A DNA stretch of 64,000 nt from Planctomycetota bacterium (GTDB lineage Bacteria > Planctomycetota > Phycisphaerae > WQYP01): the NCBI GenBank assembly GCA_021800165.1, contig JAJYZF010000014.1, forward strand, positions 1 to 64,000, written 5' to 3'. Position numbers and translations under genes: made by a program. The notes under the pieces were generated by a model, which saw nothing but the letters and a program-made list of their open reading frames with translations, was not told where the DNA came from and did not search any database. Of the stretch, positions 27,662 through 36,620 are shown piece by piece (the first letter of the stretch is position 1; each line of letters opens with the position of its first letter).

Positions 27662-28193
27662 GGGCCAAGGGAGCAAAAAGCGGAGGCAGTTATAGATATG
27701 GCGCGGGTTAGGTGATTCCGCCTCCTCCGGTCTCAACGCCTATTACACGCCGCCATCGGATGCGCCGGAGGGCCAGCTTTCAGCCAGCTACGATTGGTCG
27801 GTTTCGCAGGTGCAATACAAGGCCATACAGGCGGACACATTTGGTGCTCCACCGGCGAATAGTTATACTGATTCCATCAGTCTCCCGATGCATCGGGATA
27901 AACTCCCCAACGCGTTTGGGGGCGACCTTGACATTTACGCCGGAGATTGGGGGCTATTGGCAGGTTTCGGTGGATTGCAGCGTGGCCGGGACGAATACCA
28001 CGACAAATTTCCAATGGAAATGGGCCGGGGCGGCGCTGAATCTTAACGGCAGCGGTTGGACCGCGAGCGGGGCAAACTCCCCGAACCCACCGACCACCAC
28101 CAGCCCGGCTACGGAGCCGACGTGGACGGCGAACATAAAATCGGTAACGCCCGCTGCGATCACAAGCGTCTGGGAACGGGCGGAGGATCAACG
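27662..28193. pseudogene. Remnant of an unknown surface-type protein (copy C region)
   Basis: Between two exported paralogs the plus strand holds pieces of a protein in two frames. From about 27714 one frame reads AYYTPPSDAPEGQLSASYDW and continues to TDSISLP near 27886. Then another frame reads GATLTFTPEIGGYWQVSVDC and continues with FQWKWAGAALNLNGSGW and PATEPTWTANIKSV to the stop at 28197. Comparison with the copy at 30388-30600 shows mainly synonymous differences in the first frame before the palindrome at 27884 and in the second frame after it, so both parts were once coding. No intact start was found. Family unknown. Confidence 0.5.
27771..27983 (+). repeat. 213-nt direct repeat, copy C
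   Basis: Matches 30388-30600 base for base in length, with scattered substitutions. It starts GGCCAGCTTTCAGCCAGC and contains the palindrome CCCGATGCATCGGG (27884-27897). The two copies bracket exported paralogs 3 and 4. Confidence 0.85.
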
Positions 28194-30364: not shown

Positions 30365-30851
30365 CGGGTACGCCCGGTACCTCGGCAGGCCAGCTTTCAG
30401 CCAGCTACGATTGGTCGGTTTCGCAGGTGCAATACAAGGCCGCCCAAGCGGACGCATTTGGTGCTCCACCGGCGAACATTTATACTGATTCCATAAGTCT
30501 CCCGATGCATCGGGATAAGCTCGCCAGCGCGTTTGGGGGCGACATTGACATTTACGCCGCTGATCGCGGGATATTGGCAAATTTCGACGAGTTGCAGCGT
30601 GATCGTGAGGGTGCATAAGGAGTGCCAACCCGGGCCGGTGGCCAACCGTACCCGGCCATTGTCAACGGCGCGTCGCCAGATCACAACGGTGATCAAGGTG
30701 GAGTATAAAAATTGTAGTTCATGGTGTAAAATTGTCCCGTTGTCGCTGAAGTACCAGGCGGGTACCGTCTGAATTTTGCGTGGAATGTGCCGGGCCGTGA
30801 CATCGGAGGCTGGACCTTGGGCATATAGGGCAGCGTGTAGTAGAGGATCCT
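30365..30851. other. Region with repeat copy D, no supported gene
   Basis: The stretch begins with the second 213-nt repeat and its short surface-protein remnant (QLSASYDWSVSQVQYKAAQA in one frame, GATLTFTPLIAGYWQISTSC in another). The remainder up to the transporter start has only a 60-codon minus-strand frame (30693-30875) without motifs. I see no terminator or clear promoter. Confidence 0.5.
30388..30600 (+). repeat. 213-nt direct repeat, copy D
   Basis: Second copy of the repeat at 27771-27983, with the same palindrome at 30501-30514. After about position 30600 the two sites diverge completely, so only this unit was duplicated or retained. Confidence 0.85.
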
Positions 30852-33293
30852 GTGGCTCATAGAAACCTCATTCATCGCTGCATAAGCCGTCGGCGGTTCG
30901 GGGGGCTTTCGCGGTGGGTTTTTGTTGTCTGGGCGATGGTGTGCCTGCTGTGGGGCGGCACGACCGTGGTTGCGGCGGGGACGGCTCCGCGGCGACCAAT
31001 ACGGCTATATTTCTGGACGATTTCGCGCGATCGGGGGGTGGAAGCGATTGTGCATCAGTTTGAGGCGGATCATCCGGGTGTGAAGATTGTGGCATCGCTT
31101 TATGACGGCGGTACCAACGGATCACAGCGTCTGGCCACGGCCATTATGGGCGGCGCGCCGCCGAATATCGTCTACCAGGATCGTTTTACCATCGGGCAGT
31201 GGGCGGTGTTGGGGGCGTTTTACCGGCTCAATGACCTTATCAGCCAGAGCATGGCGCGGCAAAATCGCGGTGGTCCGGAGGGTATCAATTCCGCCGATTA
31301 TTATCCCTTCTGCTGGCGGGAAGCATCGTATCGGGGAGGGGTTTATGGTATTCCCACCGGCACTGAGGTGCGGGTGCTTTTTTATAACTCCGACGAACTC
31401 CGTCAGGTCGGTCTGGTAAACACGCTGGGCCGGGTGGCACCGCCGAAAACCTGGGGCCAGCTCGAGCGGGACGCCTTGAAGCTCTGTCGCCGCAACGCTG
31501 CCGGGGATTTGACGCGACTGGGCTTTGCTCCGAACTACGGCAATAGCTGGCTTTATATTTATGCCTTCCTGGACGGGGGAAGATTTATGAACCGGGCCGG
31601 CACGCTTTGCACGATGGATTCGCCGCCAGTGGTCAAGGCCCTGGCTTACATGGCGCGCTTGTACCGCTTGCAGGGCGGCATCAATCGGGTGGATGCGTTT
31701 GTTAATGCCGGTTCCGGCCCGCAGTTCGACCCTTTTTTGAGCGGCAGATTGGCGATGAAGATTGACGGCAACTGGGTGCTCAACGAGATCGTTCGCTACC
31801 AGCGGCATTTGCGTTTCGGCGTGGCTTATCCGCCGCCGCTACGGGGTCATGGGTCCGCCACATGGAGTGGTGGCTTTGCCCTGGTGATACCGAAAACGGC
31901 GAGCCATAAGCAACTGTCATTTGATTTCATACGGTTTTTTGTCAGTCAGCGCGGGGCGCAGATCTATAACCGCGTGAACAACCGCTATTACGCGGCGCGT
32001 GGACGCACGTATCTACCCGACTTTACCGCCCAGCCGGCGATTAATCGCGAAATGTATCGGCGCTATGTGCGGGGGAATCCCAACATGCCGCCGCGTGTAG
32101 CCAAAGCCATGCACACCTGTTATGAACTCTTGAAGATCAGTCATAACCGGCCGGTTACACCGGTGGGCGATTATATGTGGGACCAGATGTTGGAGGCCCA
32201 AAGCAGCGTGTTTCGCGCGGGTATGAGTGCACAAGCCGCCCTGACGCGGGCGACCAAAAAGGTGCAGCGGCGATTGAACCGCATTTTACATCCAATTCCG
32301 GCGGCCCGGTTGCCGGAGGGTGTGGTGATGGCGGTGCTGGCCGTGGTGGCGGTGGTATTGGTGCTGGCGGGCTTTTGGCGGGAGTGGCGGAAGAACAGGC
32401 TAACGCAATGGCGGCGGTCGCAGACGGCCATGGGGTGGATGTTTGCAGGTCCGGCGGTGGCGGGGTTTCTTATCTTTTCGTTGGGGCCGATGGTGGCTTC
32501 GCTGCTGTATAGTTTTTGTCGGTACAATTTGCTCCACGCTTCGCGTTGGGTGGGGCTGGAAAATTACCAGCGTGTATTGATGGGGCATTCGCTGTTCTGG
32601 TATTCGCTGGCCAATACGGCGTATATGCTTATCGGCGTGCCGTTGGGTATGGCGGTGGGGTTGGCGTTGGCGATGTTGCTCAATACGGAGGTGCGCGGCA
32701 TCCGACTGTATCGCACCATTTTCTATTTGCCGGCGGTGGTGCCGGCGGTGGCGGCGGCGTATTTGTGGATGTGGATCCTGAATCCGGTGAATGGTTTACT
32801 CAATTCGCTGTTAAGGGATTTTGGGGTGGCGCATCCGCCGCTGTGGCTCAACAGTCCGTCGTGGTTGCTGGGGTCCAAGGCGGGAATTATTTTGATGGGG
32901 TTGTGGGGCGCTGGTGCGGGAATGATTATCTGGTTGGCGGGGCTTAAGGGCATACCGACGCAGCTCTATGAGGCGGCCAAGATGGACGGTGCGGGTCCGG
33001 TGCGGCGGTTTTGGAATATCACACTGCCGATGCTCACGCCGTACATTTTCTTCAACCTGATTATGGGGGTGATCGGCACGATGCAGATTTTCAGCCAGTC
33101 GTACATTATGACCTCGGGTGGGCCGGACCATTCGACGGATTTTTATGCGTTGTATCTGTTCAATCAGGCCTTTAAGTATTTTCGGATGGGCTATGCCTCG
33201 GCCCTGGCGTGGCTTCTGCTGCTTTTGATATTGGCTCTGACGGCGATACAGTTTTGGCTGAGCCGGAGATGGGTGAATTATGATGTGGTGTAA
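30852..33293 (+). CDS. ABC sugar transporter: substrate-binding protein fused to permease
   Basis: An 813-residue fusion. After a signal anchor (about 19-42) residues of roughly 48-470 form an extracellular solute-binding protein of the carbohydrate type (RPIRLYFWTISRDRGVEAIV, PNIVYQDRFTIGQWA, GVYGIPTGTEVRVLFYNSDEL, GRLAMKIDGNWVLNEI). A membrane span near 485-508 leads into a MalF/UgpA-type permease (about 520-813) with six spans and the EAA loop YEAAKMDGAGPVRRFWNITLP that docks the ATPase. Normally these are separate proteins. The start is a GTG with a GAGG site. The partner permease follows; no ATPase gene is in the window, so a shared MsmK-like ATPase is likely. Confidence 0.87.
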   Translation: MAHRNLIHRCISRRRFGGLSRWVFVVWAMVCLLWGGTTVVAAGTAPRRPIRLYFWTISRDRGVEAIVHQFEADHPGVKIVASLYDGGTNGSQRLATAIMGGAPPNIVYQDRFTIGQWAVLGAFYRLNDLISQSMARQNRGGPEGINSADYYPFCWREASYRGGVYGIPTGTEVRVLFYNSDELRQVGLVNTLGRVAPPKTWGQLERDALKLCRRNAAGDLTRLGFAPNYGNSWLYIYAFLDGGRFMNRAGTLCTMDSPPVVKALAYMARLYRLQGGINRVDAFVNAGSGPQFDPFLSGRLAMKIDGNWVLNEIVRYQRHLRFGVAYPPPLRGHGSATWSGGFALVIPKTASHKQLSFDFIRFFVSQRGAQIYNRVNNRYYAARGRTYLPDFTAQPAINREMYRRYVRGNPNMPPRVAKAMHTCYELLKISHNRPVTPVGDYMWDQMLEAQSSVFRAGMSAQAALTRATKKVQRRLNRILHPIPAARLPEGVVMAVLAVVAVVLVLAGFWREWRKNRLTQWRRSQTAMGWMFAGPAVAGFLIFSLGPMVASLLYSFCRYNLLHASRWVGLENYQRVLMGHSLFWYSLANTAYMLIGVPLGMAVGLALAMLLNTEVRGIRLYRTIFYLPAVVPAVAAAYLWMWILNPVNGLLNSLLRDFGVAHPPLWLNSPSWLLGSKAGIILMGLWGAGAGMIIWLAGLKGIPTQLYEAAKMDGAGPVRRFWNITLPMLTPYIFFNLIMGVIGTMQIFSQSYIMTSGGPDHSTDFYALYLFNQAFKYFRMGYASALAWLLLLLILALTAIQFWLSRRWVNYDVV

Positions 33294-33335
33294 ACCAGGC
33301 GCGCCGCCTCGGCGGTGGTGCCGGGAAGAGTTGGT

Positions 33336-35147
33336 ATGAAACGATTGCTGTTTGCGGGCGGGCTGTGGCTGGAAACGGTGTTGATGGCGGCGCTGGCTAC
33401 GATTATTGTTCACCGCACCTTGCCGGACAATGCCGGAGAACTGACCTGGGCCCTGGGCGTGCTGGCTATTTTTGCGGGTGCTGCGGCTTTTCTTGCGCCC
33501 ATGGGACTGCTGCAACGTTTAACGCTTCAAGGGGCGCTGATCAGCGGAGCGTGTCTATTTATCCTGCCTTTTTTGTGGCTGGTGGGTACGAGTTTCAAAT
33601 ACAACCGGGAAATTTTTGTGCAGCCACCACATTGGCTGCCGGCCTTGCCAAGAGAGGTCATCCGCTCTCCGTATCTGGTGAAACGCTATGTCCGTTTGCC
33701 GCCGCCACCACATGTTGGCAAGAGCCGCTGGCGCGCCATGGCTTTGGCCTTGGAGCAAAACTTGTGGCGGCAAGCACGTCCCCTGCTGCCGCAGAAGGAG
33801 TTGGCCCTTATTGGTGTTGGTTCGGCGCGTGCGGTGATGGGTCCGATGCTGGTCCATAGGCTCCAGAAGTTCGAGCCGCCGGGGTTTTGGAATCAGCCCA
33901 CCTCGGCGATCTGTCAAAAGGCGGTGGCGGCGATGACTGCTGGGCGGGTTCGCTCAGCGTGGGAGCGGGCTTATCGTGGACTAAAGCTCTCCGGTATTAC
34001 GCTTACCGATACCCACTATCATGATGCTGCGGTGCAGCCTGCGGATATTGGTTGGCGGGTCAGTTCGCCGGCAAGGTTACTGCGGGGTGAGCCGAATCTG
34101 GTGGCGTACAACTTAGCGCAAGGTCATGGGTTTACGATTCAAGCCGATTTCACGTTGCCGAAATCGGTGCATCATCTGCTGGGCATTACCATTCCCATCC
34201 ACGAAGATCGCTCCTGGCAATATGTGCGGGTGTCTTTGCGGGTGGGAGTGGTGCGTTACGTATCTAAGAATCTTATGTTTTTGGGCAATCGGCGCTGGCA
34301 ATCGCTGATATTTCATCTTCATGATCGCGATCCGGCCAATGAGACCAATATGGGTATTTTCCCGTTGTATCGCAGCGGCGTGGTTGACGTTCACGCGTTG
34401 CAGATGCCGGGTGCAGTGCAAGTTAAGCTGCATGTGACCAAAATTTCGCCGGCGGCTGCGGCTTTCTATAAGTTTACCGATTCTTACCGGCAGGCCTGGT
34501 ACGCCGATCGGCATTGGTTGGATTACCTGTTCAACAGCGTGACGGTGGTGATATTGTGCGTCATTTTTCAGGTGATCAGTTGCTCCATGGCGGGGTATGC
34601 CTTTGCCCGCTTGCAATGGCCGCTGCGGGATAAAATATTTGCACTGCTGCTGGCCACAATGATGTTGCCGGGAACGGTCACCATGATTCCGGTCTTTCTG
34701 ATCTTCAAACATCTGGGTTGGTACAACACGCTCTTACCACTGTGGGTGCCGGCCGTTTTCGGTAGCGCATTTTTTATATTTCTGCTGCGGCAGTTTATGC
34801 GCAATATTCCCCGGGAGTTGGAAGAGGCTGCGTTGATCGATGGCTGCGGGTGGTTTGGCATCTATTGGCGGATTATTATGCCGCTGATGAAGCCGGCGCT
34901 GGCGGCCATCGCCATTTTGACGTTCATGGGCGTGTGGAATGATTTTATGACGCCGTTGATTTATCTTTCCAGTCCGAGCCGTTACACGCTGCCTCTGGGC
35001 ATGTACGAGTTTTCCAGTGCCCATGGCGGGCAGTTTGGCATGATGATGGCGGCGGCAACAATGATGACCTTGCCCGTGGTGGCGGTGTTTTTCGTGGCGC
35101 AGCGGTATTTTATTCAAGGCATCACCCTCACGGGTATGAAGGGGTGA
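33336..35147 (+). CDS. ABC sugar transporter permease (MalG type) with a large extracytoplasmic insertion
   Basis: A 603-residue permease, about twice the usual 280. Two spans form a leader (about 7-65), then a span ending WLVGTSFKYNREIF. Where a MalG-type protein would continue within a few tens of residues, there is an insertion of about 290 residues (roughly 100-385), soluble and beta-rich (LVAYNLAQGHGFTIQADFTL, WQYVRVSLRVGVVRYVS, WQSLIFHLHDRDPANETN). The normal core resumes at LDYLFNSVTVVILCVIFQVI and includes EEAALIDGCGWFGIYWRIIMP (EAA loop) and FMGVWNDFMTPLIYLSS. I chose the ATG at 33336, preceded by GGAAGAG. It pairs with the fused binding protein-permease upstream. Confidence 0.85.
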   Translation: MKRLLFAGGLWLETVLMAALATIIVHRTLPDNAGELTWALGVLAIFAGAAAFLAPMGLLQRLTLQGALISGACLFILPFLWLVGTSFKYNREIFVQPPHWLPALPREVIRSPYLVKRYVRLPPPPHVGKSRWRAMALALEQNLWRQARPLLPQKELALIGVGSARAVMGPMLVHRLQKFEPPGFWNQPTSAICQKAVAAMTAGRVRSAWERAYRGLKLSGITLTDTHYHDAAVQPADIGWRVSSPARLLRGEPNLVAYNLAQGHGFTIQADFTLPKSVHHLLGITIPIHEDRSWQYVRVSLRVGVVRYVSKNLMFLGNRRWQSLIFHLHDRDPANETNMGIFPLYRSGVVDVHALQMPGAVQVKLHVTKISPAAAAFYKFTDSYRQAWYADRHWLDYLFNSVTVVILCVIFQVISCSMAGYAFARLQWPLRDKIFALLLATMMLPGTVTMIPVFLIFKHLGWYNTLLPLWVPAVFGSAFFIFLLRQFMRNIPRELEEAALIDGCGWFGIYWRIIMPLMKPALAAIAILTFMGVWNDFMTPLIYLSSPSRYTLPLGMYEFSSAHGGQFGMMMAAATMMTLPVVAVFFVAQRYFIQGITLTGMKG

Positions 35148-35324: not shown

Positions 35325-36620
35325 ATGGCGGCAAATCCGGCCTTGGGGGTGGTGTTTCATTGGATTGGCGGGTTGGCGTCAGCCAGTTTTTATGTGCCTT
35401 ATCGCAAGGTTCGGCATTGGTCTTGGGAGACGTATTGGCTGGTGGGCGGATTTTTTTCCTGGATTGTGGCACCGGTGTGCTTTGCGGCGCTGCTGGTACC
35501 GGATTTCTGGCGGGCTATTTTATCTCCGAAGACTGAGCTGGTTCATGCTTTTGGAAGATCCATGGAACTGCATAATGGCGGTATTCTGGCTTTAACCTAT
35601 ATTTTCGGAGCCTTGTGGGGATTGGGCGGATTAACTTTCGGCCTCACCATGCGTTATTTGGGTATCGGGCTGGGCATGGCGATCGCGCTAAGTTATTGTG
35701 CCGCCTTTGGTACGTTGATGCCGCCGATTTTTGACGGTTCCATCCTGCAGATCGCCCATACTCTCTCCGGGCAAGTTATTTTGCTGGGGGTGGCGATATG
35801 CCTGCTGGGTATTGCACTTAGCGGAGCCGCTGGTATGTCCAAGGAAAGGGAGATGCCGGAGGCCCAGAAAAAAGCCGCGGTGAAGGAATTCAACTTCGGC
35901 AAGGGAATTGTGGTGGCCACGTTCTCCGGAATCATGAGCGCCTGTTTCGCCTATGGCCTGGCGGCGGGCACTCCGATAAATACCGTGGCCCGGCAAATTC
36001 TAGTGCAGCACCATCGAGCGGTATTCTGGGACGGGTTGCCGGCGTTGATCGTGGTCTTGCTGGGCGGGTTTACCACTAATTTTATCTGGTGTGCCATCCT
36101 GCATTTTCGCAATCGCAGCGCCCATGAGTACCTGGCTTCCACCGCCCGGCCGGATGAGAATCGGATCGTGGCGGCGGTGGATGGACCTGGATATGGCCAG
36201 GCCCCGGAAGCTATGAACGCCGAACAGGGGGCCGCGTTGAGATCCGCGGCCAAAGAGCCATCGGTACCTCTGCTGATCAACTATGTCTTTTGCGCGTTGG
36301 CCGGAACTCTTTGGTACTTGCAATTTTTCTTTTACACCATGGGACAAACGCAGATGGGGCCGTATAAATTTTCGGGTTGGACGTTGCACATGGCGAGTAT
36401 CATTATTTTTGCCACGCTCTGGGGCGTGGCGCTGCATGAATGGAAAGGCTCGAGCAAACGAACCCATGTTATTATCGCGGTGGGTTTGGCGGTGTTGGTC
36501 GGCTCCACCGTGATTGTGGGCTATGGAAACTACCTGAAGATCAAACCGAAACATGCCGTTCCGGCGGTTGAGAAAGTGCGGGCGGCGGGCCGCCGCGCCC
36601 AATTCGCGCGGATCGGCTAA
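35325..36620 (+). CDS. rhaT: L-rhamnose/proton symporter family protein
   Basis: A 431-residue polytopic protein of the RhaT family, which imports L-rhamnose with a proton. Family features are HWIGGLASASFYVPYRKVRHWSWE at the start, the segment GALWGLGGLTFGLTMRYLGIGLGMAI, EFNFGKGIVVATFSGIMSACF, and LAGTLWYLQFFFYTMGQTQMG. Ten membrane spans can be drawn. It is longer than E. coli RhaT (344) mainly through central and C-terminal loops. The ATG has an AAGGAG site. No rhamnose catabolic genes are adjacent, so the substrate is assigned from the family alone. Its stop overlaps the convergent queF stop. Confidence 0.85.
   Translation: MAANPALGVVFHWIGGLASASFYVPYRKVRHWSWETYWLVGGFFSWIVAPVCFAALLVPDFWRAILSPKTELVHAFGRSMELHNGGILALTYIFGALWGLGGLTFGLTMRYLGIGLGMAIALSYCAAFGTLMPPIFDGSILQIAHTLSGQVILLGVAICLLGIALSGAAGMSKEREMPEAQKKAAVKEFNFGKGIVVATFSGIMSACFAYGLAAGTPINTVARQILVQHHRAVFWDGLPALIVVLLGGFTTNFIWCAILHFRNRSAHEYLASTARPDENRIVAAVDGPGYGQAPEAMNAEQGAALRSAAKEPSVPLLINYVFCALAGTLWYLQFFFYTMGQTQMGPYKFSGWTLHMASIIIFATLWGVALHEWKGSSKRTHVIIAVGLAVLVGSTVIVGYGNYLKIKPKHAVPAVEKVRAAGRRAQFARIG

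Follow-up and report, generated by a model that had tools for sequence, protein, structure and literature searches.

A gene pair in the window (the whole 64,000-nucleotide stretch of Planctomycetota DNA analyzed here) appears to encode a CUT1-type sugar importer that has been rebuilt on its periplasmic side, a reading to which we assign a probability of roughly 0.55. According to this reading, the genes at 30852-35147 would supply both membrane subunits of a CUT1 (maltose/Ugp) sugar importer. The substrate-binding protein (SBP) is covalently joined to the MalF-type subunit, and a large insert in periplasmic loop P1 of the MalG-type subunit would dock the tethered SBP and position it above the translocation path, a task performed in Escherichia coli by the MalF-P2 domain. 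Contact of the beta-sandwich of the insert with sugar is possible as a secondary role, and ATP would be used by a single MalK-type ATPase encoded at a distance, elsewhere in the genome. Both the docking role and the substrate class are inferred from sequence.

The permease gene (33336..35147, + strand) was characterized by Pfam, NCBIfam and PDB matches and by alignment. Its product has 603 residues when counted from the ATG at 33336, and an alternative start at GTG 33315 is possible. The sole Pfam domain of this product is PF00528 (BPD_transp_1; residues 418-596, E = 1.3e-19). The NCBIfam models MalG, UgpE and GlcU match its last ~210 residues, all under their curated or equivalog cut-offs; the MalG equivalog NF008231 scores 105 bits, its cut-off being 261. 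A PDB sequence search returned mycobacterial SugB and E. coli MalG as the best solved relatives of the core. The EAA loop (ELEEAALIDGCG..., EAALIDGCG; residues 496-520; 34821..34895, + strand), evident in the sequence and invariant in the alignment, is, as generally in this family, the cytoplasmic site of coupling to the ATPase. Two extra membrane spans precede the core at the N-terminus (residues 4-60; 33345..33515, + strand; hydropathy and AlphaFold2 helices). They are lineage-specific, being present in the source genus and missing from most homologs in the alignment. With a BPD_transp_1 domain, an EAA loop, a MalF-type partner and an SBP_bac_1 domain encoded alongside, and an OB_MalK-bearing ATPase in the genome, this is, as judged from its sequence, a genuine MalG-type (CUT1) ABC permease gene.

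Hydropathy places TM1 of the core at residues 62-87 and TM2 at residues 393-424, with nothing membrane-like in residues 103-385. These 283 residues (33642..34490, + strand; alignment and hydropathy) constitute an insert in periplasmic loop P1, between TM1 and TM2. Since TM2, TM3 and TM4 separate it from the cytoplasmic EAA loop, we infer from the membrane spans that the insert is extracytoplasmic and corresponds to loop P1 of MalG. The original prediction of an extracytoplasmic domain of 290 residues after the first core span, larger than the permease core itself, was thereby borne out, the insert comprising 283 residues vs ~244 for TM1 plus TM2-to-end. It is also not missing from homologs, having been kept in more than 40 of them, from Planctomycetota, Verrucomicrobia/Kiritimatiellae (Verrucomicrobiota), Hydrogenedentota, Armatimonadetes, Chlamydiae-labelled metagenome-assembled genomes (MAGs) and others, and a scan of GTDB species genomes yielded 44 loci, about 30 of which carry it. 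Within a phylum the insert is rare (6/294 Planctomycetota genomes; 11/289 in the Verrucomicrobiota sample). Its length is 259-311 residues in 27 aligned full proteins, the shortest being N-terminally cut, and 270-311 in nearly all of them; invariant residues of the region are few (P102, P112, P181, Y258, D291, A375, K379 and Y384). An enlarged insert was seen in one MalG of 709 residues (L055). A profile of the insert found nothing among PDB sequences at E<=1, and thus no sequence relationship to the solved MalF P2 domain. No description of the domain was found in the open-access literature. The insert is therefore a domain family absent from Pfam and undescribed as far as available databases and open-access papers show.

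To describe the fold of the insert, AlphaFold2 was run on the window protein with a 27-sequence alignment. Residues 101-330 were modelled at a pLDDT of 81-93 (84-93 for the greater part of them), while the membrane core was modelled poorly. Within the insert, the model contains a helical subdomain of about 85 residues (residues 129-212; 33720..33971, + strand; pLDDT of the helices mostly 87-92), followed by a CBM11-like beta-sandwich of ~155 residues (residues 213-368; 33972..34439, + strand; AlphaFold2 strands and Foldseek). For L046, a homolog from Verrucomicrobia whose insert is ~20% identical to the window copy, the insert was predicted with the same order of elements (pLDDT 93.6, pTM 0.89). 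The top PDB match of this second model was the carbohydrate-binding module CBM11 of Clostridium thermocellum (6r31; E = 7.4e-4, probability 1.00, TM 0.54 on target), and the next few matches include the N-terminal domain of a GH50 agarase (6xj9), which the model of the window protein also matches, and the hyaluronan-binding module CBM70 (4d0q). The CBM-type matches span E values from 7.4e-4 to 5.5e-3, at 9-14% identity and TM 0.40-0.54 on target. Matches to a contractile-injection baseplate and a botulinum complex were discarded for low probability and TM, and a Foldseek search with the whole protein was swamped by the MalG core. The insert shares the beta-sandwich fold of CBM11 (6r31), but in none of the 27 members does it match that Pfam family or any other Pfam entry, CBM families included. 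Because the AlphaFold2 models are confident and the Foldseek matches agree, the insert is, as modelled, a well-folded domain in two parts, one of which has a CBM-like fold. Thus, structure prediction gave a confident rather than a disordered domain, with carbohydrate-binding modules as its closest solved folds; the original description of it as beta-rich holds for the strands of residues 213-368 and fails for the helical residues 129-212.

The partner gene (30852..33293, + strand) encodes an SBP-MalF fusion of 813 residues, recognized by Pfam, by NCBIfam UgpA/MalF matches below cut-off and by hydropathy. Pfam assigns SBP_bac_1 to residues 62-368 and a MalF-type BPD_transp_1 domain to residues 599-807. 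Hydropathy indicates an N-terminal signal or anchor (residues 16-44), a span at residues 481-513 connecting the SBP with the MalF core, and only a short loop, not a MalF-P2-like one, at the place of P2. The fusion gene lies 22 bases upstream of GTG 33315 and 43 bases upstream of ATG 33336. No description of SBP-permease fusions in PVC bacteria was found in the open-access literature. In two further loci (L120 and L123, with SBP-MalF proteins of 948 and 924 residues), the SBP carries an extra ~80-100 residues near profile position 144, and the MalG insert is divergent. Directly downstream of the permease, at 35325-36620, lies a RhaT-like L-rhamnose/proton symporter (NF010024, 489 bits, above cut-off), which was rejected as a fixed neighbour since some species of the genus lack it next to the permease. 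Across loci, no pathway or catabolic gene recurs among the permease neighbours, which accordingly give no pointer to the substrate. A direct repeat of 226 bp lies upstream of the transporter; its copies (27766-27991 and 30383-30608) are 88% identical and separated by 2.6 kb, and the repeat extends into the final part of one predicted secreted protein.

The insert and the fusion occur together. MalG genes and their neighbours were classified with profiles built in this analysis: all insert-bearing MalG genes with a readable MalF neighbour stand beside an SBP-MalF fusion (38/38, including L061, whose insert gene is frameshifted), whereas short MalG genes do so in 8/33 cases and lack a fusion in 25/33, counts that are not phylogenetically independent. 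Stronger evidence comes from whole genomes, compared in three samples that overlap. An insert-bearing MalG is present in 12 of 61 relatives, and exactly the same 12 have the close SBP-MalF family (best other match, 349 bits). Insert and fusion are found in the same 11 of 289 Verrucomicrobiota genomes, and six of 294 Planctomycetota genomes have both. A seventh planctomycete (G130) has the fusion alone; its contig ends just past the start of a MalG with the TM1 motif of the insert family, ahead of the insert position. Since the contig edge falls inside TM1 of MalG, this genome is an apparent exception only. In three genomes, both genes are present yet unlinked (G347, C18/C190; G356, C81/C181; G473, C116/C37). 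Several other candidate exceptions were rejected: two loci scored as insert without fusion (L035, L046) lie at contig edges, a short MalG beside a fusion (L061) is the frameshifted insert gene, and the extra N-terminus of a seemingly long protein (L154) is an overlong reading frame. The proposed link between the insert and the fused binding protein upstream is strongly supported by this exclusive co-occurrence. Since the insert is found only in genomes with an SBP-MalF partner, the two probably form one capture-and-docking unit.

When MalG cores are placed on a tree, a single branch (support 98) sets the 43 insert-bearing proteins apart from the others, so that a single origin of the insert is the simplest reading. 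No insert-free member was seen inside this clade, and across the tree the insert changes once, the fusion state some five times. A third clade of fusions pairs with short MalG proteins, and the pairing is thus not obligatory from the fusion side: since SBP-MalF fusions exist with short MalG, the fusion itself does not need the insert. The insert is the most divergent part, with a mean pairwise identity of 26%, followed by the SBP (45%), the MalF core (63%) and the MalG core (67%). Because the insert evolves fast and has few invariant residues, the evidence for a fixed interface is weak. Pairwise insert distances show partial correlations of 0.49 with MalF, 0.39 with the SBP and -0.07 with the MalG core, a tracking of the two fused parts that is suggestive only and that saturation and shared ancestry could also produce.

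The source genome contains a second MalG family (L075 4158-6062 and 6052-9234, on G000:C156; relatives L076-L087 in other genomes). This MalG has an insert of ~370 residues at the same place between TM1 and TM2 and lies beside an SBP-MalF fusion of 1060 residues. Kinship of its insert with that of the 33336-35147 product was rejected by hhalign profile comparison (probability 0.5%). Because no kinship is detectable, it appears that a large P1 insert next to an SBP-MalF fusion originated on at least two occasions. Inserts of the second type show a recurring motif like Y..I..LN..W...Y.SF..I.LP, and one member matches GH42 below threshold (E = 0.018). An even larger insert was noted in a MalG-type permease of 1375 residues (L078 3773-7900, G060:C27), in which TM1 and TM2 are ~845 residues apart, a stretch with no Pfam domain.

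Work cited in PMC3150292 reports that E. coli MalE contacts loop P2 of MalF and loop P1 of MalG, its N-lobe being near MalG. Since P1 of MalG reportedly touches the binding protein there, the insert can be read as a docking element, and since the MalF-type partner lacks a loop of P2 size, a P1 insert that has taken over docking is the economical reading. The insert might instead be a true carbohydrate-binding module, which binds an oligo- or polysaccharide in the periplasm and enriches the substrate around the tethered SBP, with no part in docking. CBM11, the GH50 N-terminal domain and CBM70 lead its structural matches, and several aromatic positions are conserved (Y258, W294, Y308 and W321). 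However, these matches are remote in both identity and TM, CBM-like sandwiches are also found in non-binding proteins, overall conservation is low with no Pfam CBM match, and glycosidase genes do not recur among the neighbours; we consider this explanation rather unlikely.

Two further explanations seem improbable to us, and to the same degree. As an envelope tether, the insert would bind peptidoglycan or an outer-membrane or periplasmic partner and place the importer under a porin. The occurrence of so big an extracytoplasmic domain in mainly diderm lineages and the very basic character of the window copy (pI 10.6) would fit such a role, but no envelope gene recurs nearby, and the restriction to transporters with an SBP-MalF partner would be left unexplained. 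The domain could also be a neutral decoration that was inserted once into a tolerant loop and has no role in transport, the co-occurrence then reflecting vertical inheritance of two genes. Its single origin and fast divergence are consistent with this; however, it is kept at nearly constant length in several phyla, no member of the clade is seen to have lost it, its association with the fusion persists where the genes are unlinked, and a second lineage has an unrelated insert at this position next to its SBP-MalF fusions. Docking of the tethered SBP by the insert thus stays our preferred reading.

One OB_MalK-bearing ATPase was found in the source genome, on a separate contig (L168 4966-6156, - strand, G000:C35), with no other transporter genes evident beside it. 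This single MalK-type ATPase most likely powers the transporter, as deduced from the gene content, and since the genome has one such ATPase, yet several sugar-type permease pairs, it is probably shared. SBP-MalF genes can outnumber insert-bearing MalG genes (two in G014, three in G019, at least two in G011, and two flanking MalG in Chlamydiae-labelled MAGs), counts that come from incomplete MAGs, which could hide further MalG genes. Copies within a genome are 69-78% identical in their SBP parts and 77-95% in their MalF parts. Two SBP-MalF genes, with MalF parts more alike than the SBP parts, were also observed beside one insert-bearing MalG in L044, L045 and L047 (also L148 and L160). Tentatively, and with less confidence than the docking reading commands, the importer may be modular, one insert-bearing MalG serving several exchangeable SBP-MalF halves of different specificity with one general ATPase.

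The importer type is already known, and the P1 insert together with a tethered SBP is a new variant of it. With E. coli MalFGK2-MalE it shares the permease fold, the EAA motif, a MalF/MalG-type heterodimer and a large periplasmic domain carried by one of the membrane subunits. The E. coli domain, however, is MalF P2, whereas the present one, helical plus CBM11-like, sits in P1 between TM1 and TM2 of MalG and not in the second periplasmic loop of MalF; unlike in E. coli, the SBP is fused to MalF and the ATPase gene lies elsewhere. Mycobacterial LpqY-SugABC includes the closest PDB sequence to the permease core (SugB, 8e-26), but SugB has no insert and LpqY is not fused to SugA. In the importers GlnPQ and OpuA, substrate-binding domains are covalently fused to a membrane subunit (PMC8025302), as in the 30852-33293 product. 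These belong to other importer families (amino-acid or betaine type), whereas the pair described here matches sugar-type MalF/UgpA/MalG models, and GlnPQ lacks a distinct second subunit that bears a domain, while here the SBP is on one membrane subunit and a different domain on the other. With CBM11 (6r31), the GH50 N-terminal domain (6xj9) and CBM70 (4d0q) the insert has the beta-sandwich in common, but it differs from them in its 9-14% identity, in having no Pfam match, in lying within a permease and in the helical subdomain in front.

If the modular reading is true, specificity would change in these bacteria by swapping a receptor-plus-membrane half and not the binding protein alone. The insert defines a domain family outside Pfam in widespread, mostly uncultured bacteria. 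It would provide a natural counterpart of MalF-P2 on the opposite membrane subunit of importers in which tethering keeps the binding protein from diffusing away, and because insert and tethered SBP only occur together and a second lineage has an unrelated insert, the part that periplasmic domains play in docking becomes testable.
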